Shown here: positions 7,879 to 36,560 of the stretch, piece after piece
Layout: each line of letters starts with the position of its first letter
Numbering within the stretch: the first letter of the stretch is position 1
NCBI RefSeq assembly: GCF_009859475.1
Contig: NZ_CP044549.1
Span: 4,526,001-4,590,000 of the forward strand
Length of the DNA stretch: 64,000 bases
Source of the DNA: Hydrogenophaga sp. BPS33
GTDB taxonomy: Bacteria; Pseudomonadota; Gammaproteobacteria; Burkholderiales; Burkholderiaceae_C
Direction: 5' to 3'
Program-made: the position numbers and the translations under genes
The notes under the pieces: generated by a model
What the model saw: the letters and a program-made list of their open reading frames with translations, nothing else
Database searches by the model: none
Told to the model about the DNA's origin: nothing

Positions 7879-8697
7879 TCAATCCACCTTGGCACTCTCT
7901 CGCAGTGCCCTGAGCTGAGCTTGCAGCGTTTTTTTGGCAAGGGCTTGGAGCAGCTGGGGTTTGACCTTGTCTATCGCGGGCGCGACGAAGGCGCGCCGCT
8001 CTTCCAGACGCAGCACCTGCCAGCCAGCGGCAGTTTCCACGGGCCCGGCGGCAAGTTGCCCTTTCTCCAGTCCCTGTAGCACCTTCACCACCGCCGGAGA
8101 GAGCACGCCCATCGGTATCCATTCGGTCAGACCGCCCGACTCGCGCGTAGCTGCATCGCTGGAAAACTGCGCAACCACCGGCGCGAACGGGGCGCCACCC
8201 TTAATCTGCGCATACACCTCCTGCGCCTGCTTTTCGTCGGCTACCAGCACATGGCGCAGCCGCACTTCCTCGGTGCCCAGGGCCAGAACCTGGCGTTGAT
8301 ATTCAGCCTGCAGCTCGGCGTCCGAGGGCTGAACGCCTTGCAGGGTCTGCTGTTGCCACGCTTGTGCCAGGGCATTTTGACGCGCCAGATCGAGCCTGGC
8401 CCGGACCTGCGGCTGCTGGTCCAGGCCAGCCTTCACCGCCGCCTGCGCCATCACGGTCTGATTAATCAGCGTCTCGCGCAGCACGGACTGAAGTTGCGGC
8501 GTGTTGGCGGCCCCCCGGGCGATCTGCTCCTGCAGCAGCAGCTGACCACGTTCGGGGGGCTGTGCCTCACCGTTGATGTTGACCGCGAACGCGGTGGTCG
8601 GCTGCGCCAGACCATGGCTGACAGGCGCCAGACCGGCCACGAGTGCGACGGCCAAGGTGAGCATGGATCGGGTAAAGGAAACAGGTACGGTGTTCAT
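7879..8697 (-). CDS. Periplasmic parvulin-type peptidyl-prolyl isomerase
   Basis: A 272-residue exported PpiC/SurA-like foldase; the ATG at 8697 is chosen over a TTG 15 bases upstream. It has a signal peptide (SMLTLAVALVAGLAPVSHGLAQ), an N-terminal helical chaperone segment (about 30-125, Ala/Gln/Leu-rich), and a rotamase domain (about 130-235). The domain carries parvulin hallmarks: VRLRHVLVADEKQAQEVYAQIKGGAPF, AQFSSDAATRESGGLTEWIPMG, and GPVETAAGWQVLRLEERR. Such enzymes assist folding of outer-membrane and secreted beta-rich proteins. It starts 51 bases after the giant exoprotein stop, so it is probably the last gene of that operon and may serve the exoprotein or its TpsB pore. Its 3' end abuts the TnpB remnant. 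Confidence 0.85.
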   Translation of the reverse strand: MNTVPVSFTRSMLTLAVALVAGLAPVSHGLAQPTTAFAVNINGEAQPPERGQLLLQEQIARGAANTPQLQSVLRETLINQTVMAQAAVKAGLDQQPQVRARLDLARQNALAQAWQQQTLQGVQPSDAELQAEYQRQVLALGTEEVRLRHVLVADEKQAQEVYAQIKGGAPFAPVVAQFSSDAATRESGGLTEWIPMGVLSPAVVKVLQGLEKGQLAAGPVETAAGWQVLRLEERRAFVAPAIDKVKPQLLQALAKKTLQAQLRALRESAKVD

Positions 8698-8748
8698 CAA
8701 AAAGTTAATCAATGTTCAGTTTGAAAAAGTGAAACGAGTCACCCTGTT

Positions 8749-11700
8749 TCAGTAGCCCTTCGGCACGGTCTTGGTTCCGCCAGCCACCTCGACAAGGAGT
8801 TGGTTCTGGTTCGGAGCCAGTCCAGTGATTTGACTCACTCGGACTGAACCGGCTTGGGTTGTCAGCTTGCTGATTCCGACAGGTCTCGTGACCGACAGGG
8901 TGCCGATGTTGATGTCGCCAAATCTTGCAAGCACGTCCACCAGACCGTTGCCCACATACAAGCCGCTGCCCGAAATGGCATTGCCGCCCGACCAGGAAGT
9001 TGCGGCATCAAGCGTGATACCGGTGCCGGCCCTGAGGGTTCCGAAAGCCAGCCCTCCGTCGGTGGAGGTTGCGCTGATCTTGCCGCCTGACGAGGTCGTC
9101 AGGTTACCCAGCGATGCATGGCCGCCGCTGGTGATCGTGATGTCACCACTTGTCTGGCCGGTGCTCAGCAGCGTGGCTCCGCCCGATTGCAGCACGGCAT
9201 TGCCGGCCGTCACGTTGAAGCTTCGAATGGTCAGCGCATCGTCGCTGCGGGCGCTGAACGAAGTCTTGGCGGTGGCACCATTGACGGTGACTGAACCAGC
9301 GATTGATTCCACATCGACGCTTGAGGTGGTGCTGGTCAGCGAACCGGCTGTCAGCCCGGTGCCGGCCGTCAAGTCCAGCGCGGTGTGCGCCTTGAGGGTG
9401 TTGGCCGTCATCGTGCCTGCGGCTTCTGCCGTGATGCTGCCGGCGGTCGAGGTCAGAGTGGCAAAGAGCGCGTCTCCCTCGCTGCGCAGGTCCATGGCCC
9501 CGGTGGTCGCGCCGGTGCCGGCAACGGTCAGGCTGGTGCCCGCCTGCAAGCTGGCCGTGGCCGCGTTGAAAGCCTTGACGGTCAGCGAATCGCCGCTGGA
9601 GGCATTGAACGCTGTTTTGGCGATGGCGCCGTTGATCAGCATGGAACCACTGTCCGTGGACACATCCACGCTGGACAGCACGCTGGTCAGTGAACCAGCG
9701 GTGAGCCCGGTGCCGGCCGACAGGTCCAGCGCGGTTTGCGCCTTGAGGGTGTTGGCCGTCACTGTGCCGGCGGCTTCTGCGGTGATGCTGCCGGTTGTCG
9801 AGCTCAGGGTGGCCAGGACGGCATCGCCCTCGCTGCGCAGGTCCATGGCCCCGGTGGTCGCGCCGGTCCCGGCCACGGTCAGGCCGCCGGTGCCCGCCTG
9901 CAAGCTGGCCGTGGCCGCGTTGAAAGCTTTGACGGTCAGCGAATCGCCGCTGGTAGCGTTGAACGCGGTCTTGGCGACGACGCTGTTGATCAGCATGGAG
10001 CCACTGTCCGTGGACACATCCACGCTGGATAGCACGCTGGTCAGCGTGCCGGCGCTCAGCCCGGTGCCGGCCGACACGGCCAGCGCGTTCTGCGCCCTGA
10101 GCGCATTGGCTGTCACCGCGCCTGCGGCTTCTGCCGTGATGCTGCCGGCGGTCGAGGTCAGGTTGCCCAGAAGCGCATCCCCGTTGCTGCGCAGGTCCAT
10201 GGTCCCGCTGGTCGCAGCAGTGCCCGCAACGGTGAGGCTGGTGCCCGCCTGCAAGCTGGCGGTGGCGGCATTGAAGGAGCCCACCGTCATCGCACCCTGC
10301 AGCGCCTGCGCGCCGAACATGGTTTTGGCGATGACCGCACCGGCACTGAGAGACACGCCGGTGGATGCCAGCTCAACCCGCCCTGCGGTCGAGGTCAGCT
10401 TGCCGAAATCGGCATTGCCGCCTGCCAGCGCGGTGATGTTGCCTGGCAGGGTTGCCGACGCCACCGCCATGCTGCCGGCTGCCATGAGTGCGAGATCGCC
10501 ACGCGTAGTGCTCACCGCGCCCGCGCTCAGGTCGCCCGTGGTGGCGGTCAGGGTGACATCCTCGGCGGCGGAGACCTTCTGGATGTCCAGGTTGCCCGCA
10601 GCGGTGGTGGCGTCGACGGAAGACGTGGCACTGGTCAGCATGGAAGCTTGCAGACCGGTTCCCGCCGTGACAGTCACCGCTCCCCTGGCCGATCCAGCCA
10701 GCAGAGATGCCGCCTGGCCGGCGCTCACGGACAGCAGCCCGTTGCTGCTGGTGGCATTGGTCAGGCTGACGTTGCGCGCGGCATTCAGCGCCACGTTGCC
10801 CAGCGCGGTGGTGAAGTCCACCGACAGATCCGCCCCACTGGACATCGTGACGGCTCCGGTGTTGGCGAGCACGCTGGTGGCACCGATGTTGCCCGTTGCC
10901 GCTACGTCAATGCCGTTGGCAGCCCGCCAGGACACACCTTGCACGCCGCCGCCCAGCGCGGTCAGGTTCAGTGCGCGACCGGCTGTTGCGGAGGTCAGGC
11001 TCATCGAGCCGCCCGCCGTCACGGTCACGTCCTGGTTGGACAACGCGCTGGCCAGGTCGATGTCGTCGCCGGCGGTCAGGCGGATGCTGCCCGTGTTGGC
11101 CGTTGCGTTGCTGCCGCTGATGCTGCCGCCCGCCCCGATCACGATCTGGCCGCCCGCGGTATACATCAAGCCAGTGACGTCGCCGTCAATTTCGGCAAAG
11201 ATGCTGCCACGCGCCTTGACCGAGCCGACGTTGTGCAGATCGCCCGTCGCCGTCGCAAAGAAGTCGAGGCCGGAGTTGACCGCATTGACGGTCAGGCCAG
11301 AACCGGCTGCGCCCTGCAGGAAGACCGAATAGCCGAGCGCGGACGTGGCATTGACACCGCCCGAGCCGACCTTGACCACCAACGGATTGCCGCTTTCGCC
11401 GACAGCTCCCCCCTGCGCGGTCAGCGTGAGTTCGTTGGCCTCGATCGAGCGAACGGCGCGGTCGCCAGCGGCCGGGTAGTTAGTCACGGCACGGGCATCG
11501 TGAATGGCACCCGTGGCTGACAGCGTCGCGCTGCCCGGCGTGTAGATGTCGGCGGCCCGCATGTCGCCGATTTCATGGATCCAGATGCCGTCGTTGGCCC
11601 GCGCCACCAGTGTGCCCGTGGCATTGTTGGCCAGGGTGATCTGCAGCGGTTTGGCGGCCGAGCCGATGCTGCCCTGGGCCGCTTCCAGCACGGCCTTCTG

Positions 11701-14700
11701 GGCTTGGATAACCGAGACGCCGGCGTTGGCGACGCTCAGGATGGAGTCCGTCACCTTGATGCGAACCTCACCGGGTGCCTTGATCAACTCGACATTGGCG
11801 GTACCGCCGTTGGTGTAGGTGTCGGTGGTATCGGCGCCCAGGTAGACGAAGCCGTTGGACTCCACGTTCAGGCGGTTCGACAGCACGTTGAAGGTGTCCT
11901 TTTTGACCACCGTGAGCGTCCAGTTGTCCCGGTCCAGGACCATGTCGTCGCTCTCGGCTGACATGATGGCCAGGCGCTCGTCGGCCGTCAGCTCAGGCGC
12001 CAGACCCTGGGCAATGCGGTCTTCACGCTTGAGCGAAATCACCACCTGCCCGTCGTCGTTGCCGATCTGTCCGCCGGAGCGCAACACCACGCGGTTGCCG
12101 ACCACGTTGGGCTCTTCGATGCGGGTCTGCGTGTCGGTGCTGCTCTTGCTGAACACCGCGCTGGGCAACGGGCTGTAGAGCTCCGCGTCGGTCCATTCCG
12201 CCAGCGCACCGACCTCCGATTTTCCGTTCGCCGCGTTGGCGACGTTGATGGCCGTGATGATGCGGTCGTTGTCGGTCTGGTAGTCGGTGTCGCCGAACTG
12301 CGCGTGCAGCGCCTTCATCTCCGTCGTGCGCGCCGCCTCGATCGCCTCGATCTGCGTTTCGCTGAGGCCGCCGTTGAGGTATTGCTCACGCTCTTCGGTG
12401 CCGAAGCGGAAGACGTAGGTCGACGGGTCGATGGCATCGGCGTCGTAGCTGGTCACGTTGCCGTTGCCGTCCGTAACCACGTTGCGCACATCGCGCAGGC
12501 TCCAGTAGCGGCGGAACTGCGACCGGGTCGTGGTCATCGTCAACTGCCGGCTGTCCTCGGCCGAGCTGCCCTGCAGCGCGGCCTGGTCCCACAGCGCCAG
12601 CAACTGGGCTTCGGTGCGCTCGTCGCGCGACTCGTTGCGGTTGTTGTCGATCAGGTCCCCGGCCGTCTCGAGGTACACGTCGCCACCACTGACGACCTGG
12701 TTGACCCACAGGTTGCCGGTGCCCTGCTTGATCGCAATGCCGTTGCGAGCCTGCGCCGTAAGGCCGCCGTTGGGCGCGTCCAAGGTCTGGATGTTCAGCG
12801 TGGACTTGACGCTGCCGTCGACATTGAATTCACCGATGCCGCCGCGCGGCGCCGACAGGAAGATGCGGTTGCCGATGACATGGACCTTACTGGGATCGAG
12901 CCCGACGATGCTGCCATCGCCATCGAGCCAGACATCGCCCTGGGTCGACACCTGGTTGATGCGAAGCGCGCCGCTCATGCCCTTGAAGCTGATCGGACCC
13001 GTGTCGGAGACGGCCGTGAACGACCCAGCCCCCGTGATCAGGTTGACCGGTGCGGCCTCTCCCCCAATCCCGGTCTTTGCCCGGAAGTTCAGGTCCACAC
13101 CCTCCACCACCGCGCCGTTGTTGAGCTGGCTGATGGACCCCTGGGTCGAGGTCAGTGACACCGTGCCGCTGTCGTTGGTGATGTTGCCACCCAGACGGAT
13201 GTCACCCACGCTGCTGACGTTGAGCACGCCGCTGTCATAACCCACCAACTCGATGTTGATTGGGTGATCGGCCTTGACGCGCTGCGTGAAGACGTCCTTC
13301 ATGCCGACCTCGGTGCGCCGGTCCACGTAGTAGGTCTTCTTGATGCACAGGAAGCCACACTTCTTCCAGGAGCGGTAGTAGATTTCCTTTTCGACGTCGG
13401 TGATGAACCGGTTGGACTGGATGGAGAACGATCCGCCGCCCACGGGCGTGATGGTGCTCACGTAGACATCTTCGGCCAGGGCATTGGCCGTCTTGACGTA
13501 GGTGTCGACGCTGTCCCAGTTGGTCGTACCGCCGGGGATGAAGCCGAGCCAGGACGAGGTTTTCAGGTAGTAGCGTTTTTCCGTCGAATAGTCGTAGCCC
13601 GCTGACCACGAGTAGGTGCTATTTTCCGCCGGGTTGTAGGTGAAGCGAGCTTTGACGCCGTCAGCCAGGCTGGCCGACGAGGAACCGGTGGTAGAGAGGA
13701 TCGCGGCACCCACACCCCGCCCAGCCGTCACGGTGGCGCGGAAGACGCCGTCGGCGTCGCGCTGGTAGGTGGTGACCTCAAAAGCCCCGTTGCTGTTGGC
13801 CACCGGTTTGCTCATGTCGGTGATGCGGATGACGCCAGCGTCGCCGCCAGTGTCAAGTCCCATCAAATCCAGCCCGTAGCCGGTCTGGTTGTCGATGTTG
13901 ATGCGCGCATAACCGTCGAGCGCGCGCACCACGCCACCACCGGTGTTGATGATCGAGCCGACGAGTTCGACCAGACCACCCTGGACGTTGGTGGCCGCGA
14001 CCTGCAGCCGGTTGGTCTGTGCATCGAAATAGACGATGGGTTGCAGCCGCCGCGTCGCCATGGCCTGCAGCATCGTGGTGCGCTGGCTGGCCGAGATCGT
14101 GCCGTTGGCAAATTGCTTGTTGACTTCGGCCTCGCTGTCGGTCGGCAGCGCACCCGTCAACTGGACCAGAGACGATTTTCCTTGCGAGAGGTAGAGCCCG
14201 CCCTTGTTCTTCCACTCGTTGGCCCAGGCGGTGATCTTGCTGCCCACCGTGCTGTCGCTCAGCACCACGTTGTAGTCGGCCTGGCCGGACTGCACCGTGC
14301 CGTTGATGTTCAGGTAGCGGGCACCGATGAAGATGCCACCACTGGCGTACACCCCGCCGGCCCCATTGACCACGCAGTTGGCGTTGTAGGTGGTCTCGGA
14401 GGTTCCTGGCCGAGCCGAGCCGCAGGCTGTCACGCCCAGGTTGTCCAGAATCTGTTCCTGGTCGTCGTTGTAATGCACCGCATACAGCGACTCCGGCGAG
14501 CCGCCGACCGACTGGCTGATGGTGGGCGAGGACAGCACAAAGTTCTTGCCCGCCGACACCTGGATTTCTTTGCCGTCCAGGCGCGGCGTGTAGCCCGGGT
14601 TCTCGGCATAGACCGAGATGCTGCCAGCCGTGTTGATCAGGTCGATTGTTCCCAGCTTGTTGTAGAGCCACCCGTTGACGCGCATCTCGGGCGCGCGCAT

Positions 14701-17700
14701 CTGATCCTCGCGCAGGTCGGCCCAGGTGCCGTCGGCCGCGCTGGCGATCACGGCGATGTCGGGGTTCCACGCCGCTCCGGGCATGTATGTGTTCTTGATC
14801 GTCAGCTTCGGTAGTTCCTGCGACGCACCACCGCCGCGCGTGTCGATGCTGTCCACGCTGAGTCCCGTGGTTTTGGCCGTGGTATTGAGCGCGCCAATGT
14901 CGGCGGCGCTCATCAGGTAGGTGCCGTTGTACTTGGCAAAGCCGCCGTTGGCGTCGACCACCATGTCGTACACCCGCAGGTTCAGCGGGCTCTGGTTGTC
15001 GATGTAGATCTCGGAGTCGGCGCGCGCCATGAGCGACGCAGAGCCGGTCACGTTGTCGCCGAACAGTTCGATGTTGCCGCTGCCCGCGCGCAGGTCTAGT
15101 ATGTTCAGGAAGTTGGCGGCAACGCCACTGGAGGCCACGATGACCTTGCTGCCATCTTCCATTGTCATCTCTTCGGCCAGCCCTTCGTTGAGCAGCGTGG
15201 CGAAATAGAAGGCCAGTTCGGCTTCGACAAAGGCCCTTACCTCGGGCACATCGCCGTAGCGCGCCAGCTGCGCGTACAGCCGGTCGATGTAGGCGCCGGC
15301 CGAAGCCGACAGGTCTTCGTTGGTGATGGTGTAGCGAACGTCGCCTTCGCTCTCCAGAATCTGGCCATTGAGGCCGATCACCAGCCGCTGCTTGTTGCCA
15401 AAGCCGGCTTCGAACTCGCCGTTGAGGACGGCGGTGTTACTCAGGTTTTTGTTTGAGCTGCCATAGTCGCTGCTGATGCCCATCAGCTCGCCCAGCTCGC
15501 GGGTCCAGTCACTGACCTTGCCCTTGCCTTCGACCACCAGGGTGCCTTCGACGCCACCCAGCTTGATGGTGCCGCCGGAGCGGACCGCGTCGGCGTTGAC
15601 CGTCACCGCGTTATTCAGGTTGAGGGTGGCGTCCGCATCGGGGTTGATCGACACCGGAATCGCAGAGTGGTTGAACAGGTCGGCGCGGGCCGTGACGAAA
15701 TGTTTGTTGCGGTTGAAATTGCGGTCCTGCCCGGCCAGCAGGCTGAGGTCTTCGGTGCTGCGCAGTTCGCTGCCGGTGCCAAGGGTGACCCGGTTGTTGA
15801 CGTTGGCCGTGGCGTAGGCATTGCCCTGCGCCGCCGCCGCGAGACCATAGGTCTTGGACACCGAGTTGGCCTCGATGTCGATGTATGACAGCGCGTTGAC
15901 CGCCGCTTCGCCGTACACGTTGATATCGGTGTTCTGCCCGATGGTGGCATCGGCGTTGGCGTTGGTGCTGATGCGCGTGTTAACCAGCGCAATCGGCACT
16001 GCGCCGCCAACGTCCATCTGAGCGCGCGATGAGCCGCGCACTTCGTTGTACGCGCGAAGCTCCAGCAGGTCTTCCAGCAGGATGCTGGCGTTGCTGCCGA
16101 TGCTTGCCGTGGCATTGCCGTTGAGTTGGGTGACCACGTCGGCGCCGGCGCCGCTGAACACACCGCCGCCGCCACCCACGGCGCTCTGGCCCGTGAGGTT
16201 GGTGCGGGCCAGGTCGTTGGTGGCAAGCACACGCAGGCTGCCGCTGTCCAGCGTCGAGCCGTCGAGCAATCGGGCCGTCGCCGAGCCATCGAGCGTGGCC
16301 CGCGTGACTGCTCCGGAAGCGCCCACGGCCGCCGCGTTCACGGCTGTCGTCGTGCTGTCGTAGCGCACCTGGCGGCTGGCTTCTACGGTGGTCATGCCAC
16401 CGACCAGGAGCGCGCTGCCGGCCGTGACGCCGAGGTCGGCCACGACGGACTGGTCGTGGTTGACCGAGGCCTCGGCTCCCGCGCCTGCTACCACACCACC
16501 CGAACCGGCCACGGCGTCGCTGTCGATGGACTCGCTGCCGCTGGCCTTGACTTGCAGGCTGCCACCCACCACGCCCCGGATGCCCGCCGCATCGACGGCG
16601 ACCAAGGTGTCGCTGACGGCACTGGAGAAGGCCATGCCCAGGCCCACGAAGCCGGCGCCGATGCCGACCGCACTGGATTCGATGCGCATCGAATCGGTCG
16701 CCGTGATGCCGGCGTCCCCGGTGGTGACGAGCACCGCGCCCTGCGCGAGTTCCACTCTGGAGAGGCCTGTGTTGGTCGCGGTGGCCGAGGCGCCCGTGGC
16801 ACCGAGCAGCAGCGCGCCCGCGCCGGCCGAGGCCTGGCTGGTGACGGACGAGTCGCCCGATCCCAGCACCGACGAGACGTTCACCGTGTCGCCCTTGAGC
16901 GTCAACGCGCCCAGGCTGGTGACCGACACGTCCGAATCGACGTGGGCTTCGGCGACCGAAATGCCCACCGCAGCGCCGCCGGCCACGGCCACACCCACGG
17001 CATCGGCTTCGGCATGCGGATTGGAACGGGCCGAAATGGCCAACGCGCCCTGCCCCGCGTCGAGCGCGGCACCGCTGGCCAGCGTGACACGCACCGTGCC
17101 GCTGTCGCTGGCGGTCGCGCCGGCACCGCTGCCGGCAAACACGCCGGCCACGCCTCCCACCGCAAGCGCCGACACGCCGCCTTCGCGCCCCGCCGTGATG
17201 GCAATCCCGTCACCATTGATGCTGCCACCCACCTGCGTGGCGACACTGCCAGTCTGCTCGGCCGTGGCGACGACCACGCCCACGCTCGCAACGCCGACCG
17301 AGGCGCCGAAGGCCTCGCTCAGCATGGATGCCTGGTCGAGCGAGGTCACGCTCACGGTGCCACCCGCATTGACCTGGCCCGACAGCGTGGCCGAGTTGGC
17401 GGTCCGGTTGCTGGCGACCGAGACCGCCGCGCCCACGCCGACGAAGCCGCCCGAACCGGCGATGGCGCGGCTCGTGATGGCTGGCGAACCTTGCACCGGG
17501 GTGCGGGTGCCCGAAGCGATAGCGATGCCGTCCTGGCTGGTCAACTGGCTGGCACTCACGCTGGCGCTGTTGGCACCGCCCAGAATGGTGACGGCCACAC
17601 CGGCGCTCACGCCGGCGGCAGTGCCGCCGGCGACGGCACCCGCGTTGTTTTCCACCGAGGTGCGGTCCAGGCTGCTGACCGTCACCGCACCGGCCTGGAC

Positions 17701-26811: not shown

Positions 26812-26877
26812 GGCGGTGGTCCTGGTAACCGTCGAGCGAGCGACAGCGTGGCAAAGTGAAAAAGGGGGAAAGACGTG

Positions 26878-27699
26878 TCAGGCCGTCGACGGCTCGGGCT
26901 CGACCGGTGCAACCGCAGTCCCCGGCGCAGAAGGCTCCTGCTGCGCCGCGCGCTCCATCAGCGGGCGGAACCGCCGCAGCGACAGCAGGTGCAGGTAGGC
27001 CAGCGCCAGCGCGCCCTGACCGTGCAGTTCGCCTGCCTGAGCTGCGTCCAGCGCATTCAGCTTGCTCTCGTCGACGCTGAGGAATCCGGTCAACTCCATC
27101 TGGCGTCCGCCGGGCAAGACGACTTGCAGCGTGCGCTCGTGCAACAGCCCGGCGGCATCCAGCGCGGCCACGGTGTCCGAGGTGGTAGAGGCCGCAGCGT
27201 CCAGCGCGACCAACTCCTGCAGCACCGCCTGCAGCCAGGGCATTTCCTTGCCCTGGTCGTCAAACAGCGCCTCGCCTTCGCTCAGGCTCAGCGCGGGCTG
27301 GTGCACGGCCACCGGCCGGGCGTCTTCGTCGTCGTATTCGTTCAGTAGCCGAAACGGCCAGGTGCGCAGGACCGCTGGCAGGTAGTTGCCCGTCCAGCGT
27401 CCCGTGGTTTCGTCCACGTACAGATTGCGCCCGTTCTCCAGACCGGTGATGGCCAGCAGCTTGCCGCCACCGCCGGCCACACGCGTCATGACGCACGGGA
27501 ATTCGACCGCCGCTGCCGGCATCTCTGCTGCGGCGAGCGCCACGGTGATCTGGCTGCCGACCCAGCGCATGTCGCGCTGGTCGCGCTTCAAGCGCTGATG
27601 GCGGTGGGCCTCGCGGTGAAGGATGGTGAACTGGGATGCGGCCGCCGCCCCCGGCGCGGTGGTGAACGCGGGAACAGATGCGCTTTTGGCTTTTTTCAT
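26878..27699 (-). CDS. SapC family protein
   Basis: A 273-residue protein with the complete SapC (PF07277) pattern: FTILHREAHRHQRLKRD near the start, VEFPCVMTRV, GLENGRNLYVDETTGRWTGNYLPAVLRTWPFRL, then EGEALFDDQGKEMPWLQ, HERTLQVVLPGGRQMELTGFLSVDESKLNAL, and the final GQGALALAYLHLLSLRRFRPLM. The biochemical role of SapC proteins is not settled; the family was named from S-layer/surface-protein export loci and often sits next to large secreted proteins. The gene starts 61 bases after tpsB and ends 66 bases before the giant exoprotein, so it is very probably co-transcribed and linked to export or surface retention of that protein. No signal peptide is evident. The C-terminal 25 residues are a low-complexity Pro/Glu/Ala tail. 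Confidence 0.85.
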   Translation of the reverse strand: MKKAKSASVPAFTTAPGAAAASQFTILHREAHRHQRLKRDQRDMRWVGSQITVALAAAEMPAAAVEFPCVMTRVAGGGGKLLAITGLENGRNLYVDETTGRWTGNYLPAVLRTWPFRLLNEYDDEDARPVAVHQPALSLSEGEALFDDQGKEMPWLQAVLQELVALDAAASTTSDTVAALDAAGLLHERTLQVVLPGGRQMELTGFLSVDESKLNALDAAQAGELHGQGALALAYLHLLSLRRFRPLMERAAQQEPSAPGTAVAPVEPEPSTA

Positions 27700-27760
27700 G
27701 AGAAGGTCATTTCGACGGTGAAAAGGTGATGAAGGGGCTTATGGCAAACGCGTCGGGCGG

Positions 27761-29452
27761 CTACCAGCTCGCGCTCGCGCGCAGCGACAGACGCGTACGG
27801 TCGCCCTGGAAACCGGCGGTCTGTTGGGCCAGGGTGGCGTCGACCGCGAGGTGTCGGTTCACCTGAAACTGCACGCCCGCACCGGCCGAGGCGATGCGGC
27901 GCGACCAGCCTTTGCTGTAGACACGGGCGTGGTCGGCAAACACATACAGTTCGGTTGCCTCCAGGCCTGGGACGGTGACGGGCTGGTAGAGCGCCATCTG
28001 CACGGCATAGCCGCGCTCGCCCATCGCGGTGCCGCTGTCGAAGCCGCGCACCGAGTTGCTGCCGCCGGCCAGCCAGGCGTCGATCACGTCCGGCGTGTCG
28101 TGCGCGGTCAGCCGCGCCTGGCCGTTGATGCGGAACAAGGGTCCCGAAGCCCCGAGCCGTTGCGCGAACATGCCTGCCACTTCGGCAAAGCTGTAGGAGT
28201 TCACCGGCCCGCGCGCCGTGGTGACCGAGGCGCGCAGCGACGCGGGCGAAACCTCGCCGGGCTCGCGAGCCGGCCAGTCGGTCGATGCCGTCAGCGTCAG
28301 TTTGTCGACGGTGCGGTCGCTGAGCTCGAAGCCGCTGATGGTCGAGCGGGACTTGATCTGCGTGGCGGAGCCGGAGAGCAGCAGCAACTGGCGCGCGCTG
28401 ACGGGCACATGGCGACCGACCTCCACCGCCACCGAGCTGGACGCCCCGTGGATGACCAGGTCGGGCACGCCGGGCACCGAGGACGCGAAGCTGGTGCGCG
28501 AGCGCGAGCCCGAGGCGCTGGCACCGAGCCGCCAGCCCTGGTGGCCCAGCGGCAGGCTGCCGGACAGACTGAGCGTGGCGGCGTTCGAGCCGGCAATGGC
28601 CATGACATCGAAGCGGCCGCCCCGAAGACCGAGCGGGAGCAGGCGCAAGCCGGCGATCACGCTGGAGCGCGCGGACGAGCCGGTGTCGGGCATATCCACC
28701 AGGCCCCAGAGCTGCTCCTTCGAGCGCTCCGGCACGTGGACCAGCAGATCGCTGCGGCCGAACTCGGCGCCGGGCACATATGCGGCCTGGGCCGCAAAGT
28801 CGCTGGCTACGTTGAACACGCCGAGCCGGCGCTCGAGTTCCTCGGGCCTGATCACGGAGCCGGCGGCCAGGTCGAACCATTGCCCGACCCAGGCCGGGTC
28901 AATGCCGGACGCACCCTCGACCTTGACCGCGCCGAGCCGGCCTTCGACCAGAAGCACCCGCAGGGTGCCGCTGCGCAGATCCTGCTGCGGCAGCACCGGC
29001 ACTGCGGTCGTCACGCCCTTGCTCAGGTACAGCGTCTGGATAGCACGCAGAAACGCGTTGAGGTCCTGGCTGGACACGTCGCGCCCAAGATAAGGCTGGG
29101 CCAGGGCGCGCAGCTCGTCGTCGCCGAGCAGCTCGCTGGGCGAGAACAGCACCTCGTTGAGCAACACGGTGCTCGCGAGGGTCGGCGCCTCGGGCACGGG
29201 CGGGGGCGCCGCTGGCGTGGCGCGGGGCGCCGCCGGCAGCTGCGGCGCAGCGTTGTCGGCGCGGCGCAGCTCGTCCTGCAGGCGCGCGGCCGGGTCGAGC
29301 ACGGGGAGGTCGGCCGCGATAGACCGGCCACACACCAGCGCGAGGATCGCAGCGCCCAGCGCCAGGCGGCGCGCGGCGGCCAGGGGCTTCGAGAAATGGA
29401 GATAAGCCGCTCTGTCCTTGTCGGACCAGCCTGCCGTGCGGAATGCGCTCAT
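27761..29452 (-). CDS. TpsB outer-membrane transporter (FhaC/ShlB/HecB family)
   Basis: A 563-residue two-partner secretion pore. It has a long N-region with a hydrophobic stretch (LALGAAILALVCGRSIAA), a Pro/Ala linker (about 65-95), a POTRA region (about 100-255; FSPSELLGDDELRALAQPYLGRDVSSQDLNAFLRAIQTLY, then GTLRVLLVEGRLGAVKVEG), and a C-terminal 16-strand barrel. The VRGF motif that folds into the pore is present in GGSNSVRGFDSGTAMGERGYAVQ. The protein ends in a beta strand with terminal Trp (LRASASW), suited to BAM recognition. It would export the giant exoprotein encoded two genes downstream. The ATG at 29452 has no strong Shine-Dalgarno. Terminator-like hairpins upstream suggest that a promoter for the tps unit lies within 29455-29525. 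Confidence 0.9.
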   Translation of the reverse strand: MSAFRTAGWSDKDRAAYLHFSKPLAAARRLALGAAILALVCGRSIAADLPVLDPAARLQDELRRADNAAPQLPAAPRATPAAPPPVPEAPTLASTVLLNEVLFSPSELLGDDELRALAQPYLGRDVSSQDLNAFLRAIQTLYLSKGVTTAVPVLPQQDLRSGTLRVLLVEGRLGAVKVEGASGIDPAWVGQWFDLAAGSVIRPEELERRLGVFNVASDFAAQAAYVPGAEFGRSDLLVHVPERSKEQLWGLVDMPDTGSSARSSVIAGLRLLPLGLRGGRFDVMAIAGSNAATLSLSGSLPLGHQGWRLGASASGSRSRTSFASSVPGVPDLVIHGASSSVAVEVGRHVPVSARQLLLLSGSATQIKSRSTISGFELSDRTVDKLTLTASTDWPAREPGEVSPASLRASVTTARGPVNSYSFAEVAGMFAQRLGASGPLFRINGQARLTAHDTPDVIDAWLAGGSNSVRGFDSGTAMGERGYAVQMALYQPVTVPGLEATELYVFADHARVYSKGWSRRIASAGAGVQFQVNRHLAVDATLAQQTAGFQGDRTRLSLRASASW

Positions 29453-29521
29453 GAGTTTCTTTGACCCTTTCGACGGAACCGTTCTTTTTTCGCAGCAGCC
29501 TGCACACCACTAACTGCTCTG

Positions 29522-29554
29522 AAAAAAGACCCGCACGGCAAAAAGAAGTACGGG
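29522..29554 (-). terminator. Rho-independent terminator candidate after the hfaD-like gene
   Basis: Read on the minus strand, CCCGTAC pairs with GTGCGGG (one G-T pair) around an 11-base loop, then TCTTTTTT. It would end the hfa-like transcript before tpsB. Confidence 0.5.
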
Positions 29555-29557
29555 CCG

Positions 29558-29588
29558 AAAACCCAGGCGGGCGGGAAGCCTGCCTGGG
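29558..29588 (-). terminator. Second hairpin downstream of the hfaD-like gene
   Basis: Eleven-base arms (GCCTGCCTGGG against CCCAGGCGGGC, one G-T pair) with a five-base loop, followed on the minus strand by TTTTC. It lies 13 bases past the stop codon; with the hairpin at 29530 it may form a tandem terminator or a partial attenuator. Confidence 0.45.
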
Positions 29589-29600
29589 CCAGGGGGTTGC

Positions 29601-32600
29601 TCAGCGAGGCGCGGCCATGATCGAAGAGGCCACCGAGTTGCCGACGGCTGAGGCCGATATCTGGTTGCCGCTCACGTTCACCGTGCTGCCCGACATCGCG
29701 CCGGAAATGCCGGCACCGAAGTTCACGCTGGTGACCGTGGCGGTGATCGCGCCGCTGTTGCGCTGGTAGTTGGCCACCGCCGAGGTTGGGGTGCCGGTGT
29801 TCAGCGCGTTGAGCGTCAACTGGTTGACCGCGCTGTTGCCGTAGGCTTGCGCTGCCACCTGGTTGCCCGTCACGGCCATGTTGCTGGCAGTAGAACCACC
29901 CGCGTTCAGGGCGACCTGGTAGCTCACCGCCGTGCTAGATGCCGAAACCGCGCCGGTGTTGTGCTGGCTGTTCAGGATGCCGGCGTTGGCGTTGACGGCG
30001 AAGCCCGTGAGAGCATCACCCGCGTTGACCAAACCACCCGTTGCCGGACCATAGTTGGCGCCGGCCAGCGAGTTCAGCACGTTGCTCGCGCTGTTGCCGC
30101 GGGCCAGTGCCGTCGTGCTGTTGCCGTCCAGCGCCACACTGCTGTTGTTGAGCGCGCTCGATGCCAGCGGTGCCAGCGATACACGGGCGGCGCTGGTGGC
30201 GCTAGCCGTCACATTGGCACTGCTGTCCTGCATGTTGCGCAACGCCACGCTGGCCGCCTGGCTGGCCGTGCCGGTGACCGACGCCGAATTGAGCGCCTGG
30301 TTGGCGGTCGCTTCGGCAGCCGTGGTGTTGCCCAGGATGGACAGCGTGCTGCGAACCGCGCTGCCGGTCTCGCTGACCATTGCTTCCTGGTTATTCAGCG
30401 TGGTGGTGGCAGTGCTGGTGACCGCGCTGCTGGCTGCCTGCTGGTTGGCCAGCACGTGTTCGGCCGTCAGTGTGTCGTCGAAGGTCCCGCCGACGCTGAT
30501 GTCTGCGGCCTGGCCGGTTCCGACCTGGCTGCCCTTGACGGTCACGGTGTTCGTGGCGTCGTTCATCACGGCCAGTGCGATGTTGCTGTTGTTGGACAGC
30601 AGCACGCTGGTGTCGGTGACCGCGCCCGGGGCGAACAGGTTGAGGCTGGACGCCGCGCTGACCGCCGAGGAGCTCATCTGTGCGGATTGCAGCGCAGACA
30701 CCGCCGTCACGCCCGTGCCGTCCAACACCAGGCTGCTGGTCCCGGTGTTGGCCCTGGCCTCAGCCATCTGTGTGTTGCCCGACACACTCAACGAGGAACC
30801 GCTGATGGCCGCGCCCGGCTGGGCGTCGATGAAGAAGCTGCCGTAGACGTTGCTTTCAATGGCGGCTCCGGCGGCCTGCTGCAGGTTGGCCAGCGAGTGG
30901 TCGGCCACCGTCTCCAGTCCCTCACCCGTGAAGGATGCACCAGCGCTCGCCACGGTGCTGCTGCTGCCGGAAGCGATTGCGTTGCCCTTGACTTCCGTGC
31001 GGTTGGACGCCACGTTGCCGCGGGCCAGACCGTAGGTGGTGTTGCCGCTGACGGACAGCGCGGACTCGGTGACCATGCCGCCGACAGCCATGTTCACGCC
31101 GCCGAGATGGGGCGTGCCGTCGATGGGCGATGCGACTCCTGACCCGGGCAACGTGCCACCATTCATGAAGTCAAGGTATTCCTGACCAGACATGGCGTAG
31201 CCAACTGCGCTCTTTTCGACCGAATCTGCACCAGCGGAAGTCCAGCCATCTCCCAGCAAATAAGCGCGTTCCGCAGCACTCAGCGCTGTCGTGTCAACGG
31301 TCAGCGTGCCAGCTGTAAGCTGACCCGCACCGTCGCCCAGATCTTGGTGACCAAGACCACTGCCCGTGATGACGAAGTCGAATGGACCGCCAGCCGAAGC
31401 GGCAAGACCCGCCTGTCCGACGAGCGCATTCACGCCTGCGGTAGTCATCTGCACGTTCTGTTGCGCACTGCTGCTGGCCAGTTGGCCGGAGGCATTGATG
31501 GCGAGCGCGTTGGAGGCGTTGTTGCTGGTGGCGGCGGCCCTGGCGGTATTGCCGTCAGCGACCACACTGGAGCGCATCACGTCGCCGACGATGCCGACGC
31601 GCACGTCGGACGCCAGCGAAGCATTGTCTGCGTCCCGCAAGGTGGCGGTCACGCTGCCTTGGCCGGTCTGCACGTTCTGCAGGCTGAACGACGCAGTGGT
31701 GGTCAGTTCGCCGTCCGTGGTGGTCCCGAGCGGCCCTTCAGCCGCTGTTGCGATGTTGGTCGCGCTCACGCCCATTGTGTTGTTCACGCGGCTGCCGGTG
31801 GCCTGTGCGTCGATCCGGTTGCCCGAAGCCGACACGCTGGAGGCGGTGTCGACGGAGCCGACGTTGCCGTTCACGGTGGTCAGTGCGACCGCCCCTGTGA
31901 CGGACTGGGCCGTGATGGCGGCGTCGACCGCTTGCAGACTGGTCAGGTTGGCCACGCTGGAGAAGTCGCCACTGGTCACGTTGGTGGCGTTGAGCGACAG
32001 GCCACTCTGACCATAGTTGCCGTAGGCCTCGGTGGACAGGGTGTTGGCATCGTTGAGCGCGGTACTGTTGTCCAGGGAACCGCTCACCGCGATGTGGGCC
32101 GACGCATCGTTGCTGGTGGCATGAGAACTCACATCAGAAAGCACCGACTGGTCATTGAGCAAGCCGTAAGCGGCTACAACTTGGCCGTCCAGCGCTTTCA
32201 CCGCGTTGTTGTCGATGCTGACGGTGGATGCCACGCCCAGAGTGCCAGGTGCAGCCACCGTGGTGCCCGAAACCACCATGGCATTGTTGCCCAGGTTCCC
32301 ATAACCAATGGCTTCCTGCAGGTTGTCGGTCACGGCCAGCGTGCTGCCCGACACGCCACCGCCTTCGATGAAAGCGCGGGCGCCAACGAGCGAAGCGGAG
32401 ACAGCGGAATTGGGAAGGTCGTCTTCTGGATCAACCCGTTGCTGGTTCAGGATGCCAGCGCCGCTGCCCACCGTGGTGCCAGTGAGCGTGAGCTTGTTCG
32501 AAGCGTTGTTGGACAGTGCCACGGCGTCCTGGATGTTGCCGGTGACCGACAGCGTCGTGCCGGTGACGGCCACGGCGCTTTGGCCGATCAACGATCCGGC

Positions 32601-34271
32601 GTTCAGGGAGGTCACAGGTGCGCCGGTGTTGACCTGGCGGTTGCTGACCGTGGCAGCGCCGGTGGCTTCCAACAGCTCGTCGAGGCTGCTGAGGCTGACC
32701 GTCTCACCCAGCGCAAGCGTGGTGGCATTGAGCGACAGGCTCTGGCCCACCTCGTTGCCGCGCGCGCTGGCGCTGCTCTTGTTGTCGGCCACCGCGACGC
32801 TGCTGTTCTGCACGGCGCCTGCCGTGGCTTCGATACTGGAGCCGAGGTTGCTGGCCGTGACAGACACGTTGGTGTTGTCTTGCTGGTTGGCCAGCGCCGT
32901 GCTACCGGAGAAGGACGCGGCATTGGCGCCGCTGCTCAGGGCGCTGCGGGCGGCGTTGCCGGTGGCGCTGGAGCCGATGCTGTTGGTCGACAGGGCGACC
33001 GCACCGTTCACCAGGGTTTCCACCGCGGCGGCCACAACACCATTGCTGGTGACGGCGTCCACGTCCGACCCCAACAGGCTGGTATTGGTCTGCAGGTTGG
33101 AGATCACCAGGTCGGCATTGACCGCCGTGCCGTCTGCATAGCCGTTGAGGGTGGCGCCAGAGGGCACGATGCTGCCGCTAGGACCCGCAAACGACAGGCC
33201 GTCGGCCAGCAGGATGCGGTTGCCCACCGGCGACGTGCCGCTGCCCAACGCTTCGTTGCCCATAGCGGCGCTGCTGATGCTGTTGCCCGACACGGCCAGC
33301 GAGCCGCCCAATGCGCTGGTGCCCTCAAAGCCTGTCACGGTGGCTTGGACGCTGCCGTTGATGTTGTTGGCCGCTGCGGAGGCGTTCGTGCCGAGCTGGG
33401 TGTTGCTGACCACGGCCGAGCCGGTGAAGGTGGGAGCACCTTCGACCGCCTGAATGTCGATGGTATTGGCGCTGCTGTTGCCCTTCATGCTGGCGACGAT
33501 CTTGTTGCCGGTGACCGCTGCGCCGGCTTCGAGGGCGTCGGCCAGGAGGTCTGCGCTCAAGGTCAGTGCGACGGCATTGTCAGCAGCGCTTGCGCTGGAG
33601 GTCACTCCACTGGTTTGCTGCGCCGTGGTCACGACGATGCTGCCCGCCGATGTGGATTCCATCGGGCCAAAGGTCGAGCTCACACTCGTGGAGCCCGGGG
33701 TGACGGAGGTGTAGCCGACCGGCACGGCACCAGCAATGGAAGAGGTGCCCTGGTTGACGACGGTGCTGGCGGAAATGGTGTTGTCCTTGTTGACCGCACT
33801 GCCACTTTCAAAGCCGGTCAGGACGATGGACAGGCCGTTGTCATCCACCAGGCTGCTCACGACACCCGTATTGGTCGAGTACAGCAGCGAAGCGAGGCCC
33901 GTATTGCCACCGGCGGTGTCGCTGATCAGGGAAAGGTCGATCGACGTGTCGACAGGCTCGGCAAGGTTGCCAACGGCGCTGGCGCCCATGGCGTTGCCCG
34001 TGAGGAAGGTCGAATTGGCGGTCTGGGCGCCATTGGCGCCGATGTTGCCCTGGCCGTTCTGCAGCGTGGCATTGATCAAACCGGAGTTGTTCAACAGCAG
34101 GTTTTGGGTCTGGTGACCATTGGCGACCGCGGTGATACCGTCAAAGACGAAGCTGGTGTCGGCGGCGTGGGCGCCGCTGGCGATCAGGGTGGCAACAACG
34201 GCCACGCCGATGCTGCTGAGGGCCGGCTTGCGGCCGATGTGGTTGCGGTTGCGGTATTGACTGTTTTTCAT
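29601..34271 (-). CDS. Large beta-repeat adhesin in HfaD position (1,556 aa)
   Basis: A secreted 1,556-residue protein with a Sec signal peptide (SIGVAVVATLIASGAHA). The mature part is Cys-free in reading, very rich in Ala, Ser, Asn, Val, Thr, and contains at least fifteen degenerate units with the motif VxGNxxxAxAxGNxAxNxL (for example NTTYGLARGNVASNRT, NSTTALARGNSASNVL, NQVAAQAYGNSAVNQL), separated by strands such as ALANQQDNTNVSVTAS. This suggests a beta-solenoid surface fibre. GAGGAG five bases before the ATG is a strong ribosome site. The preceding two genes resemble HfaB and HfaA, and Caulobacter HfaD is a repeat-rich adhesin in the same order, so an HfaD-like, holdfast- or surface-anchor role is inferred; it is far longer than that protein. 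Homology itself is not shown here. Confidence 0.65.
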   Translation of the reverse strand: MKNSQYRNRNHIGRKPALSSIGVAVVATLIASGAHAADTSFVFDGITAVANGHQTQNLLLNNSGLINATLQNGQGNIGANGAQTANSTFLTGNAMGASAVGNLAEPVDTSIDLSLISDTAGGNTGLASLLYSTNTGVVSSLVDDNGLSIVLTGFESGSAVNKDNTISASTVVNQGTSSIAGAVPVGYTSVTPGSTSVSSTFGPMESTSAGSIVVTTAQQTSGVTSSASAADNAVALTLSADLLADALEAGAAVTGNKIVASMKGNSSANTIDIQAVEGAPTFTGSAVVSNTQLGTNASAAANNINGSVQATVTGFEGTSALGGSLAVSGNSISSAAMGNEALGSGTSPVGNRILLADGLSFAGPSGSIVPSGATLNGYADGTAVNADLVISNLQTNTSLLGSDVDAVTSNGVVAAAVETLVNGAVALSTNSIGSSATGNAARSALSSGANAASFSGSTALANQQDNTNVSVTASNLGSSIEATAGAVQNSSVAVADNKSSASARGNEVGQSLSLNATTLALGETVSLSSLDELLEATGAATVSNRQVNTGAPVTSLNAGSLIGQSAVAVTGTTLSVTGNIQDAVALSNNASNKLTLTGTTVGSGAGILNQQRVDPEDDLPNSAVSASLVGARAFIEGGGVSGSTLAVTDNLQEAIGYGNLGNNAMVVSGTTVAAPGTLGVASTVSIDNNAVKALDGQVVAAYGLLNDQSVLSDVSSHATSNDASAHIAVSGSLDNSTALNDANTLSTEAYGNYGQSGLSLNATNVTSGDFSSVANLTSLQAVDAAITAQSVTGAVALTTVNGNVGSVDTASSVSASGNRIDAQATGSRVNNTMGVSATNIATAAEGPLGTTTDGELTTTASFSLQNVQTGQGSVTATLRDADNASLASDVRVGIVGDVMRSSVVADGNTARAAATSNNASNALAINASGQLASSSAQQNVQMTTAGVNALVGQAGLAASAGGPFDFVITGSGLGHQDLGDGAGQLTAGTLTVDTTALSAAERAYLLGDGWTSAGADSVEKSAVGYAMSGQEYLDFMNGGTLPGSGVASPIDGTPHLGGVNMAVGGMVTESALSVSGNTTYGLARGNVASNRTEVKGNAIASGSSSTVASAGASFTGEGLETVADHSLANLQQAAGAAIESNVYGSFFIDAQPGAAISGSSLSVSGNTQMAEARANTGTSSLVLDGTGVTAVSALQSAQMSSSAVSAASSLNLFAPGAVTDTSVLLSNNSNIALAVMNDATNTVTVKGSQVGTGQAADISVGGTFDDTLTAEHVLANQQAASSAVTSTATTTLNNQEAMVSETGSAVRSTLSILGNTTAAEATANQALNSASVTGTASQAASVALRNMQDSSANVTASATSAARVSLAPLASSALNNSSVALDGNSTTALARGNSASNVLNSLAGANYGPATGGLVNAGDALTGFAVNANAGILNSQHNTGAVSASSTAVSYQVALNAGGSTASNMAVTGNQVAAQAYGNSAVNQLTLNALNTGTPTSAVANYQRNSGAITATVTSVNFGAGISGAMSGSTVNVSGNQISASAVGNSVASSIMAAPR

Positions 34272-34358
34272 AAAAACTCCTCAGGCTATAGGTGCCAGTG
34301 ACGGCGATAAATGACTTAAAACAACGAACGAAAAAACGGAAAACGCGCGAAATCCAGG

Positions 34359-35726
34359 TCAGCCGCCGATGCGCAGCTTGGCGATCTCCTGAAGGCCGGG
34401 ACCGTCCCGGTGGATGGAACTGTCGGCCGCATCGGGCCGCCAGATCACATTGACAGCAGCCGGCGCAACGCCCCGGTTGGCAAGTGCAGATGTGAATGCG
34501 GCAACGCGTTGGTTGATCAGGTCGTCGCGCTTGCCGGCATCCCAGTTCTCGCTGTCGCGCGCCACCAGCATCACGTCGACGGAGCCTTGCTTGGCAGCCG
34601 CCGCGATCTGGTCCACGAGCGCCATCGTCGACCCGCCCAGTTGCGTCGCCCCGAATTCGAACGGCAGCTGCACGACGCTGCCGGTGGGCGCCGCGCCGGT
34701 CTGGCTCGACGCATTGACCGCCGTGCCCCGCTGGCCGGTTTGCACCGGCTCACCGGTCACATCGACCAGGGGGTTCTCCACCTTGCGCAGCATGGCGGCT
34801 GGCGTGGTCTGGATGCTTTTTCCCGCGCCGGGCAGCAACGGCAGGCAGGGCGCGTGGTCGACCTGGGTGACCGCACCAACCAGACGCACCACGCCCTCTT
34901 CGAGCGCCGCGCGCACGCCGAGCTGCACTGGCTCCTGGCCCTTCGCGCCAAAGTCGATGTCGAACAGGTTGCTGTTGAAGAAGCGGAACACATTGAGGCC
35001 CACTTCGTAGCCGGTGAACTGCTTGGTCAGGCTGATGGTGCGCACGACCATCAGGGTCTTGGTGTCGACGATGCGCAGATCTACACCCACCGACTGGCTG
35101 AAGGTGCGGGCCTTGACCGAGACCTGGTCGACGCCGATTTCACCGCCGCCCGAGTTGATGTTGTAGTTCAGCTCGGTGATGCCGCCGACGATGAAGTAGT
35201 CGGACTTGTTGATGGTGCCGCCGAAATACGGCATCCAGGGCACGTTCTGGCCGGCACCGCCATTGGCACCCGCGAGCACATGGTTGCGGCCGTCGCCGAG
35301 TTGTCGGCGGTCGGCGTAGCCCAGCTCGCGCTCCGCAATCATGGGATCGAAGCGTTCGGCGATGCGCACTGCGCCGCTGAGCTTGCCGAGCGCCGAATAC
35401 ACCATGAGCGCGCCGCCCTGAGTGATGGCGTTGCCCTCGTTAATGTTGTATTTGCCGGTGTAGTCCTTGACATCGCCGACAGCCACCACCACGGGCGTGC
35501 GTCCGGTGGCCGCCACACGGTCGGCAAAGCAGGCCATCAAGGGCTCCATCGGCGTGATGTTGTCGCGCACGGAAGGCCCGAGGACGGTCGGCATCTCACC
35601 GGGTGCCATGCGCTGCATGGACGGGGTGGCGCAACCGGCGAGCAGCGCGGCGGCCGAGGCGGCCAGCACCAGCCGCAGTCCGGGCGTGGCGAGGGCAGCA
35701 GCAAAAGAATTCGGTTTGGTGATCAT
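34359..35726 (-). CDS. hfaB: HfaB/CsgG-family outer-membrane lipoprotein
   Basis: A 455-residue lipoprotein with lipobox LLAGC (Cys about 32). The central part matches the CsgG/HfaB family: VAVGDVKDYTGKYNINEG, VYSALGKLSGAVRIAERFDPMIAERELGYADRRQL, SDYFIVGGITELNYNINSGGGEIGV, VDLRIVDTKTLMVVRTISLTKQFTGYEVG, and GVRAALEEGVVRLVGAV. CsgG-type proteins form an oligomeric outer-membrane channel that exports curli subunits, and HfaB is the version needed for holdfast anchoring in Caulobacter. A C-terminal extension of about 100 residues (LPFEFGATQLGGSTMALVDQ ... DSENWDAGKRDDLINQRVAAF) looks OmpA-like and might contact peptidoglycan. It starts 15 bases after the HfaA-like gene and precedes the HfaD-like gene by 87 bases. 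Assignment to HfaB rather than generic CsgG rests on sequence feel and gene order. Confidence 0.8.
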   Translation of the reverse strand: MITKPNSFAAALATPGLRLVLAASAAALLAGCATPSMQRMAPGEMPTVLGPSVRDNITPMEPLMACFADRVAATGRTPVVVAVGDVKDYTGKYNINEGNAITQGGALMVYSALGKLSGAVRIAERFDPMIAERELGYADRRQLGDGRNHVLAGANGGAGQNVPWMPYFGGTINKSDYFIVGGITELNYNINSGGGEIGVDQVSVKARTFSQSVGVDLRIVDTKTLMVVRTISLTKQFTGYEVGLNVFRFFNSNLFDIDFGAKGQEPVQLGVRAALEEGVVRLVGAVTQVDHAPCLPLLPGAGKSIQTTPAAMLRKVENPLVDVTGEPVQTGQRGTAVNASSQTGAAPTGSVVQLPFEFGATQLGGSTMALVDQIAAAAKQGSVDVMLVARDSENWDAGKRDDLINQRVAAFTSALANRGVAPAAVNVIWRPDAADSSIHRDGPGLQEIAKLRIGG

Positions 35727-35741
35727 GTCTGTGTCCGCCGC

Positions 35742-36314
35742 TCAGTTCAGTACGCCGAACGAGCAACCGGTGCTGCCGGCCAGGCTGGCGCTTTGGGTTC
35801 CGCTGTTGCCTTGCTGGTTGTTCAGCGCCTGGTCGGCGGAACCCCTCACTTCGGTCGTGGTGTTGCCGTTGACATTGGAGCCGACGCTGCCGCTGTTGCC
35901 CTGGTCGCTGTTCGAGGTGCCGCCCGCGGCACCACCCGAGTTGTTGTTGGCGTTTCCGGTAGCGTCTGAGGTGGCGCCGCTGTTGGAGGGCGACAGGGCG
36001 GCGGCGCCCTGGCTGCTCTCATTGCCCACGGCGCTGGCGGTCTGGTTGCAGTTGATCTGCCGAGCGATGTTGGTCGTGTAGACCGGCGCCGTGTAGTAAC
36101 CCATGTTCCGCTTCTGGATCATGTCTTGGATCACGGCCTGGTTGACCTTGTCGGCACTGCTCTGGAACTGCCAGGCGGCGTTTTCCCCCGGGCCGTTGGC
36201 CAGCGCGAAAGGGACGGCGATGACAGCGAGCACGACAGCCAGCAGGCCATTTCGGCAGGCAGCGCACCGCAGGGCTGCGAGGCGCGAAGGAGCAGGAAAT
36301 AGTTGGGTTTTCAT
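35742..36314 (-). CDS. Small secreted HfaA/curlin-like protein
   Basis: A 190-residue exported protein; the ATG at 36314 is preferred because a signal peptide follows (NGLLAVVLAVIAVPFALA) whereas the upstream in-frame ATG at 36422 adds a Pro/Arg-rich segment. The mature part opens with GENAAWQFQSSADKVNQAVIQDMIQKRNMGYY, then a Gly/Asn/Ser/Gln-rich low-complexity region (DATGNANNNSGGAAGG, GNTTTEVRGSADQALNNQQGNSGTQ) and two Cys (INCNQ and TGCSF). Size, export and Gln/Asn content fit HfaA- or curlin-type amyloid-prone subunits secreted through the CsgG-like HfaB encoded next. No canonical curli repeats are present. It is the first gene of the adhesion locus. Confidence 0.6.
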   Translation of the reverse strand: MKTQLFPAPSRLAALRCAACRNGLLAVVLAVIAVPFALANGPGENAAWQFQSSADKVNQAVIQDMIQKRNMGYYTAPVYTTNIARQINCNQTASAVGNESSQGAAALSPSNSGATSDATGNANNNSGGAAGGTSNSDQGNSGSVGSNVNGNTTTEVRGSADQALNNQQGNSGTQSASLAGSTGCSFGVLN

Positions 36315-36521: not shown

Positions 36522-36553
36522 TAAAAAAAGCCACACGCTGAGCGTGTGGCTTT
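36522..36553 (-). terminator. Strong intrinsic terminator upstream of the adhesion locus
   Basis: A 12-base-pair stem (AAAGCCACACGC with GCGTGTGGCTTT) and three-base loop, followed on the minus strand by seven T. It would stop minus-strand transcription entering from the mobile-element region and insulate the hfa-like operon promoter. Confidence 0.75.
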
Positions 36554-36560
36554 GAGTTCA

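Follow-up and report, generated by a model that had tools for sequence, protein, structure and literature searches.

A conserved gene cluster joins an HfaB/CsgG-type triad to a two-partner secretion module in Hydrogenophaga sp. BPS33

Organisation of the gene cluster

The window analysed here is a 64,000-nucleotide stretch of the Hydrogenophaga sp. BPS33 genome (contig NZ_CP044549.1, positions 4,526,001 to 4,590,000). It contains a run of seven minus-strand genes, at 7879-36422 in the list of open reading frames (ORFs), in which a triad resembling hfaA, hfaB and hfaD is joined to a two-partner secretion (TPS) module comprising tpsB, sapC, tpsA and a parvulin gene:

35742-36422, minus strand: HfaA-like small secreted protein, 226 residues (from the translation; likely start 36314)
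34359-35726, minus strand: HfaB/CsgG-type outer-membrane lipoprotein channel, 455 residues (CsgG PF03783, NF037935, alignment of 24)
29601-34271, minus strand: HfaD-like repeat protein, 1,556 residues (matches more than 400 residues long, AlphaFold)
27761-29452, minus strand: TpsB two-partner secretion transporter (POTRA_2, ShlB)
26878-27699, minus strand: SapC-family protein (PF07277)
8749-26811, minus strand: TpsA, LktA-family filamentous adhesin with tandem repeats, 6,020 residues (NF012204, NF012206)
7879-8712, minus strand: predicted parvulin-type peptidyl-prolyl isomerase with a signal-peptide-like start (PF00639, translation)

The initial annotation had described seven consecutive genes with short gaps. 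The genes are real and stand in this order, separated from the end of hfaA to the end of the parvulin gene by 15, 87, 148, 61, 66 and 36 bp. In the hfaA ORF, an ATG at 36314 precedes the signal-peptide-like stretch; the parvulin ORF opens with TTG and has its first ATG at 8697. A scan of 26500-36900 found no promoters (0.8 in shuffled sequence) and six terminators (7.7 in shuffled sequence). The annotation knew of no system with exactly this gene set, and our search of the open-licence literature likewise found no prior description.

The HfaA-, HfaB- and HfaD-like triad

The second gene encodes a protein with a CsgG domain (PF03783, 64 bits, cut-off 20.8). It scores 193.8-195.3 bits against the HfaB equivalog model NF037935, under the cut-off of 300 that the control, Caulobacter vibrioides, exceeds, and only 35.4 bits against the CsgG equivalog NF011731. 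The protein is thus closer to the HfaB model than to the CsgG model, in agreement with its first description as HfaB/CsgG-like. Its lipoprotein cysteine, Cys32, is invariant in an alignment of 24 sequences. The C-terminal part (34437-34661) is weakly OmpA-like (PF00691, E=0.056, 14.2 bits, under the cut-off of 27.2) and may tie the channel to peptidoglycan. Relatives of the protein number 1,280 at E≤0.001 among 8,000 scored; two of the best 120 of these carry PF00691, and the names among the same 120 include Variovorax, Ramlibacter, Croceicoccus and Sphingomonadaceae. Run over 398 genomes of the phylum, the HfaB model matched 18 at E≤1e-15, 11 of them above cut-off. HfaB is present in four of 299 family genomes and was found in none of the three congeners searched. 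At G612:C22:117529-119315, in a genome of this phylum, two HfaB-type genes lie adjacent as a pair, both exceeding the HfaB cut-off.

HfaA-like and HfaD-like are names given from position, signal peptide (judged by eye) and repeat style, and neither protein (226 and 1,556 residues) matches a Pfam or NCBIfam family over cut-off. Both recur beside HfaB. In the best 80 of 395 HfaB-encoding stretches from a scan of genome contigs (the HfaB loci), tblastn found HfaA in 78, the exceptions being L079 and L086, and HfaD in 70; the ten without an HfaD match (L023, L039, L042, L044, L057, L070, L071, L072, L079 and L085) include several incomplete ones. The order hfaA-hfaB-hfaD, with A and D named by position, holds in the window and its relatives, and the triad is a conserved cassette. 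A consensus of 70 HfaA sequences (from 84 candidates, leaving out 14 without a GE[NS]xxWxF match) has an N-terminal conserved stretch, GENxxWQF...RQYNC, and a C-terminal one, QALNSxQxNxGxQxASVxGSxACxFGxLN, with two conserved cysteines at these conserved ends. The widely conserved part of HfaD is its last 499 residues; matches longer than 400 residues came from 57 stretches, among which a few places are represented twice. AlphaFold models this C-terminal part as all-beta (mean predicted local distance difference test score, pLDDT, 91.9; predicted template modelling score 0.90; 48-row alignment). The HfaA and HfaD profiles are alike (hhalign P=3e-4, probability 39.7%, score 36.0, the reversed control giving 13.9).

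In Caulobacter crescentus, HfaABD forms the outer-membrane anchor of the holdfast, and HfaA and HfaD depend on HfaB (PMC6707917). The triad in the window shares with it the A-B-D order, a CsgG-type HfaB and repeat-rich surface partners. It differs in an HfaB scoring 193.8 bits against the equivalog cut-off of 300 and carrying an extra, weakly OmpA-like end, in the attached TPS module, and in an HfaD of 1,556 residues against 316-485 in nine comparison loci, of which eight exceed the HfaB cut-off. Nine holdfast-anchor HfaA and nine HfaD sequences were used for profile comparison, with L148, and for HfaA also L157, below the HfaB cut-off. Tblastn gave no match to a holdfast-anchor HfaA at E≤1 in loci with HfaB over the cut-off. 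With hhalign, HfaA aligned to its holdfast-anchor namesake over 20 columns (E=0.0038, probability 8.8%, score 24.1, where the best of 20 column shuffles reached 16.3) and HfaD to its own with E=0.16 (score 19.9, with none of 20 shuffles above 16.3), neither being significant. The triad of the initial annotation is thus borne out as a conserved A-B-D cassette, in which HfaA and HfaD show no significant sequence link to holdfast-anchor proteins.

These comparisons bear on the possibility that the Hfa-like proteins anchor a secreted polysaccharide, with TpsA as a polysaccharide-binding or cross-linking partner. The better score of the channel with the HfaB model than with the CsgG model fits such a role, as does the Caulobacter precedent (PMC6707917). 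Against it stand the non-significant likeness of HfaA and HfaD to the anchor proteins and the lack of any polysaccharide-family match among the seven genes, holdfast polysaccharide genes elsewhere not having been searched for. We consider a polysaccharide anchor very unlikely.

The triad also resembles curli in its CsgG-family pore and in repeat proteins predicted to be beta-rich. Unlike in curli, neither HfaA nor HfaD of the window has a curlin-repeat match (no Pfam family at E≤0.1, within the sensitivity of Pfam), and CsgE has no matches at E≤0.001 in the BPS33 genome, the E. coli control being positive.

The two-partner secretion module

TpsB contains POTRA_2 (67.3 bits, cut-off 24) and ShlB (40.3 bits, cut-off 22.7) domains. 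Its presumed substrate, TpsA, has an LktA-type secretion domain (NF012204, 117.9 bits, cut-off 60) and 22 stretches of a 53-residue tandem repeat (NF012206, 331.1 bits, cut-off 50); the FxxPxG domain together with 53-residue tandem repeats places it in the LktA family. Against the classical TPS domain PF05860 it scores 28.5 bits, under the cut-off of 33.5, and PF05860 is found over cut-off at four other places of the genome. The last gene encodes a parvulin rotamase domain (PF00639, 55.3 bits, cut-off 21.7).

Between tpsB and tpsA lies sapC (PF07277, 174.5 bits, cut-off 28.9). The AlphaFold model of SapC has a mean pLDDT of 90.7; a sequence search of the PDB gave nothing at E≤1, and a fold search was likewise negative. 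The initial annotation offered SapC as an export or retention factor. Judged by eye the protein lacks a signal peptide, which favours a cytoplasmic role over retention at the surface, and we infer that SapC is a cytoplasmic chaperone or modifier. A search of open-licence papers yielded no literature on the family, matches to which (window SapC as query, E≤1e-8) occur in 122 of the 299 family genomes. The LktA-type domain is rarer, with 15 sites above cut-off, spread over 14 of these genomes. No fewer than six of the 15 have SapC on the same strand less than 0.5 kb upstream (G000, which is BPS33 itself, G048, G062, G109, G240 and G252), and of these six genomes only G000 has HfaB. SapC-TpsA thus stands as a module in itself. 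A second SapC of the BPS33 genome, in L114 (G000:C1:4490001-4502000), is flanked by an ORF of at least 1,692 residues without a Pfam family and by a Mur-ligase/ATP-grasp protein, with an OrfB_IS605 gene within the same 12 kb.

The parvulin Par27 binds FHA and keeps it from aggregating in vitro (PMC8151025). The window shares with FhaB/FhaC and Par27 a TpsB and a giant TpsA, and differs in its LktA-type TPS domain, in sapC between tpsB and tpsA, in the clustered parvulin gene and in the Hfa triad. In the HMW1ABC system the product of the third gene is cytoplasmic, and this protein, HMW1C, is a glycosyltransferase. SapC would likewise be a third, cytoplasmic protein encoded with tpsA and tpsB, but unlike HMW1C it matches only PF07277. 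The sapCDEF S-layer locus of Campylobacter fetus has the SapC name and a link to a surface protein in common with the window; it operates by type I secretion, where the window has TPS.

Recurrence of the joined cluster

Sixty-eight of the 80 HfaB loci are readable, in that they extend 1.5 kb or more past an HfaD match. With the TpsB profile run on all 80, TpsB follows HfaD in four of the 68 (L007, L008, L074 and L078), and in L070 TPS genes lie upstream instead. The expectation that hfa and tps genes adjoin in other genomes therefore holds in that the adjacency recurs, in two HfaB lineages, and fails in that it is rare when counted from HfaB; a triad without TPS is the rule among HfaB loci. 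The full order through to the parvulin gene is found in G299 (L007, L115) and G300 (L008, L117) and, with one extra gene before tpsB, in G303 (L074, L119, L120) and G305 (L078, L121, L122). The extra gene is a 440-residue ORF in G305 and encodes a pentapeptide-repeat protein in G303 (checked against Pfam). G733 also has a pentapeptide-repeat gene between hfaD and tpsB and keeps the order from hfaA to tpsA, inside which its contig ends. In the fragmented genome G302, tpsB, sapC and the start of tpsA lie on one contig, and the end of tpsA, the parvulin gene, hfaA and hfaB on another; this suggests the same gene set in permuted order, if both contigs hold ends of one tpsA. Across the joined clusters identity falls to 43-44% for HfaB and to about 50% for TpsB. 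Because gene order is conserved in other genomes, the block is more than a chance arrangement.

Counted from the TPS side the linkage is tighter. SapC was sought in 90 genomes of the genus of G303, a genus chosen because G303 was already known, and matched at E≤1e-40 in six. Three of these have SapC proteins of 65-66% identity (G303, G305 and G733, only the last being new, since the other two were known from HfaB), and the triad adjoins TPS in all three. In the others (G734, G708 and G705; 49-51% identity), an MSHA-type pilus cluster lies between tpsB and sapC-tpsA (L170, L172 and L174), and no HfaA, HfaB or HfaD match was found in the 38.8-40 kb read, HfaB elsewhere in these genomes not having been searched for. 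In L172 (G708), Pfam identifies an MshEN-T2SSE ATPase, T2SSF, a secretin, AAA and TPR proteins, two N_methyl pilin-like proteins and TpsB; the pilus clusters of L170 (G734) and L174 (G705) were matched to it by eye. G048, a genome 86% complete, has a SapC of 50% identity on a contig that begins 220 bp ahead of it, and no HfaB match. In L075, a DUF4347/cadherin-repeat giant adhesin (17572-21309) follows a triad without TPS, which suggests that giant adhesins are paired with anchor or fibre exporters.

Phylogeny of the two modules

The HfaB tree comprises 79 rows, one for the window, 76 from the set of 80 loci, and L149 and L150. The duplicate L034 and the partial sequences L057, L071 and L085 were left out, and the partial L070 was kept. 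TPS-linked HfaB proteins fall in two places, one comprising the window, L007, L008 and L070, with the TPS-less L009 (beside the G302 locus) among them, and the other L074 and L078. The starred branches force at least three changes of TPS linkage, and none of 500 shuffles gave a number as low. In the trees of the TPS module, by contrast, the Hfa-linked rows form one clade, both for the TpsA N-terminus (14 rows; 80/84, 78% of 200 bootstrap trees) and for SapC (20 rows; 94/99, 96% of 200 bootstrap trees), below starred level in each case. Next to this clade in both trees is a group of G048 and the three MSHA-linked genomes. Two histories would account for this: an ancient pairing, after which the triad spread further in the absence of TPS, or a TPS clade that exchanged one Hfa triad for another. 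Under both, the pairing was retained or assembled anew on more than one occasion.

Genomic context and origin of the block

The GC content of 2-kb segments is 0.629-0.714 inside 8001-36000 and 0.552-0.633 around it, and ends of an IS605/TnpB-type element flank the block:

7189-7309: IS605/TnpB-type element end, 121 bp, left of the block (91% identical to its inverted counterpart at 36564-36682)
36564-36682: inverted copy of the IS605/TnpB-type end, upstream of hfaA (repeat comparison)
5129-5249 and 53664-53783: further IS605/TnpB-type ends (repeat search)
4020-5258: TnpB gene

The assembly contains six near-full copies of the element end, all at 4.490-4.580 Mb and hence within 90 kb. The block looks acquired or rearranged. 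Mobile elements might have gathered adhesin genes whose adjacency has no functional meaning, as the raised GC content, the bracketing inverted ends and clustered copies, and the occurrence of HfaB in so few genomes of the family and in none of the congeners would allow. That four further genomes show the same gene order and a fifth shows most of it, despite low identity, is unexpected by chance, and we regard such an origin of the adjacency as unlikely. An RCC1-repeat protein is encoded at 1769-3874 of the window.

Upstream of the triad, L007, L008, L009, L074 and L075 each carry a histidine kinase gene, accompanied in all but L007 by a LuxR-type response regulator. In the window, element remnants occupy the region upstream of hfaA, and a hybrid kinase is encoded at 42287-46372.

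Functional interpretation

A functional linkage of the triad and the TPS module is well supported, and we hold it to be highly probable. Whether the two build one joint structure we judge evenly balanced. Several observations weigh against their union. TpsB is absent after HfaD in 64 of the 68 readable loci, and no TPS match occurs in the 20 kb read around HfaB in three of the four HfaB-bearing family genomes, so the triad must work without TPS. L009 has a triad in a genome with no SapC match at E≤1e-8, and SapC-TpsA is found without the triad. Within the window, a terminator-like site lies between hfaD and tpsB (29565-29551), one of the six found where shuffled sequence gives 7.7.

The triad and the TPS module may make two separate adhesins under common control, an Hfa layer and a TPS filament produced together for attachment and never touching, with conservation reflecting co-regulation or co-transfer. 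The separate occurrence of the triad and of SapC-TpsA agrees with this, and the kinases upstream of the triad in five loci, four of them with a regulator, make shared regulation plausible. It would less readily explain why sister groups have the TPS module paired with two fibre machines that are unrelated, or why the set stays together in the apparently different order of G302, although common control alone still fits both. Two separate adhesins are a real possibility, if short of an even chance.

The reading that we favour is an adhesion cluster of two exchangeable modules in which the Hfa layer tethers the TPS filament, an arrangement about as probable as not. The HfaB-like lipoprotein would form a CsgG-type pore exporting the HfaA-like and HfaD-like repeat proteins, which would build a beta-solenoid, curli-like surface layer. 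SapC would act on the giant TpsA in the cytoplasm ahead of Sec export, the parvulin would assist TpsA in the periplasm, and TpsB would export it as a long filament. Tethering of this filament by the layer of the first module would give an anchored protein adhesive. The scheme draws on the observed gene content, order, recurrence and module swapping, with export routes taken from knowledge of the families: HfaB-type pores export surface partners, and TpsB exports TpsA.

More tentatively, the product may be a composite protein holdfast, in which a beta-solenoid plinth, built on the surface by a curli/Hfa-type exporter, captures a filament of about 6,000 residues that arrives through a separate TPS pore. 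The TPS-SapC adhesin would then be a plug-in cargo for differing fibre machines, docking on the Hfa layer in one clade and on an MSHA-type pilus in the sister group, and SapC would be a cytoplasmic factor without a match among solved folds.

TPS adhesins and curli-type exporters have generally been regarded as distinct systems. If the proposed linkage is true, the conserved joint cluster and its MSHA-linked sister group would mean that surface adhesives can be assembled from two export routes at once. The cluster also offers a testable setting for the role of the SapC family, which is widespread among the family genomes.

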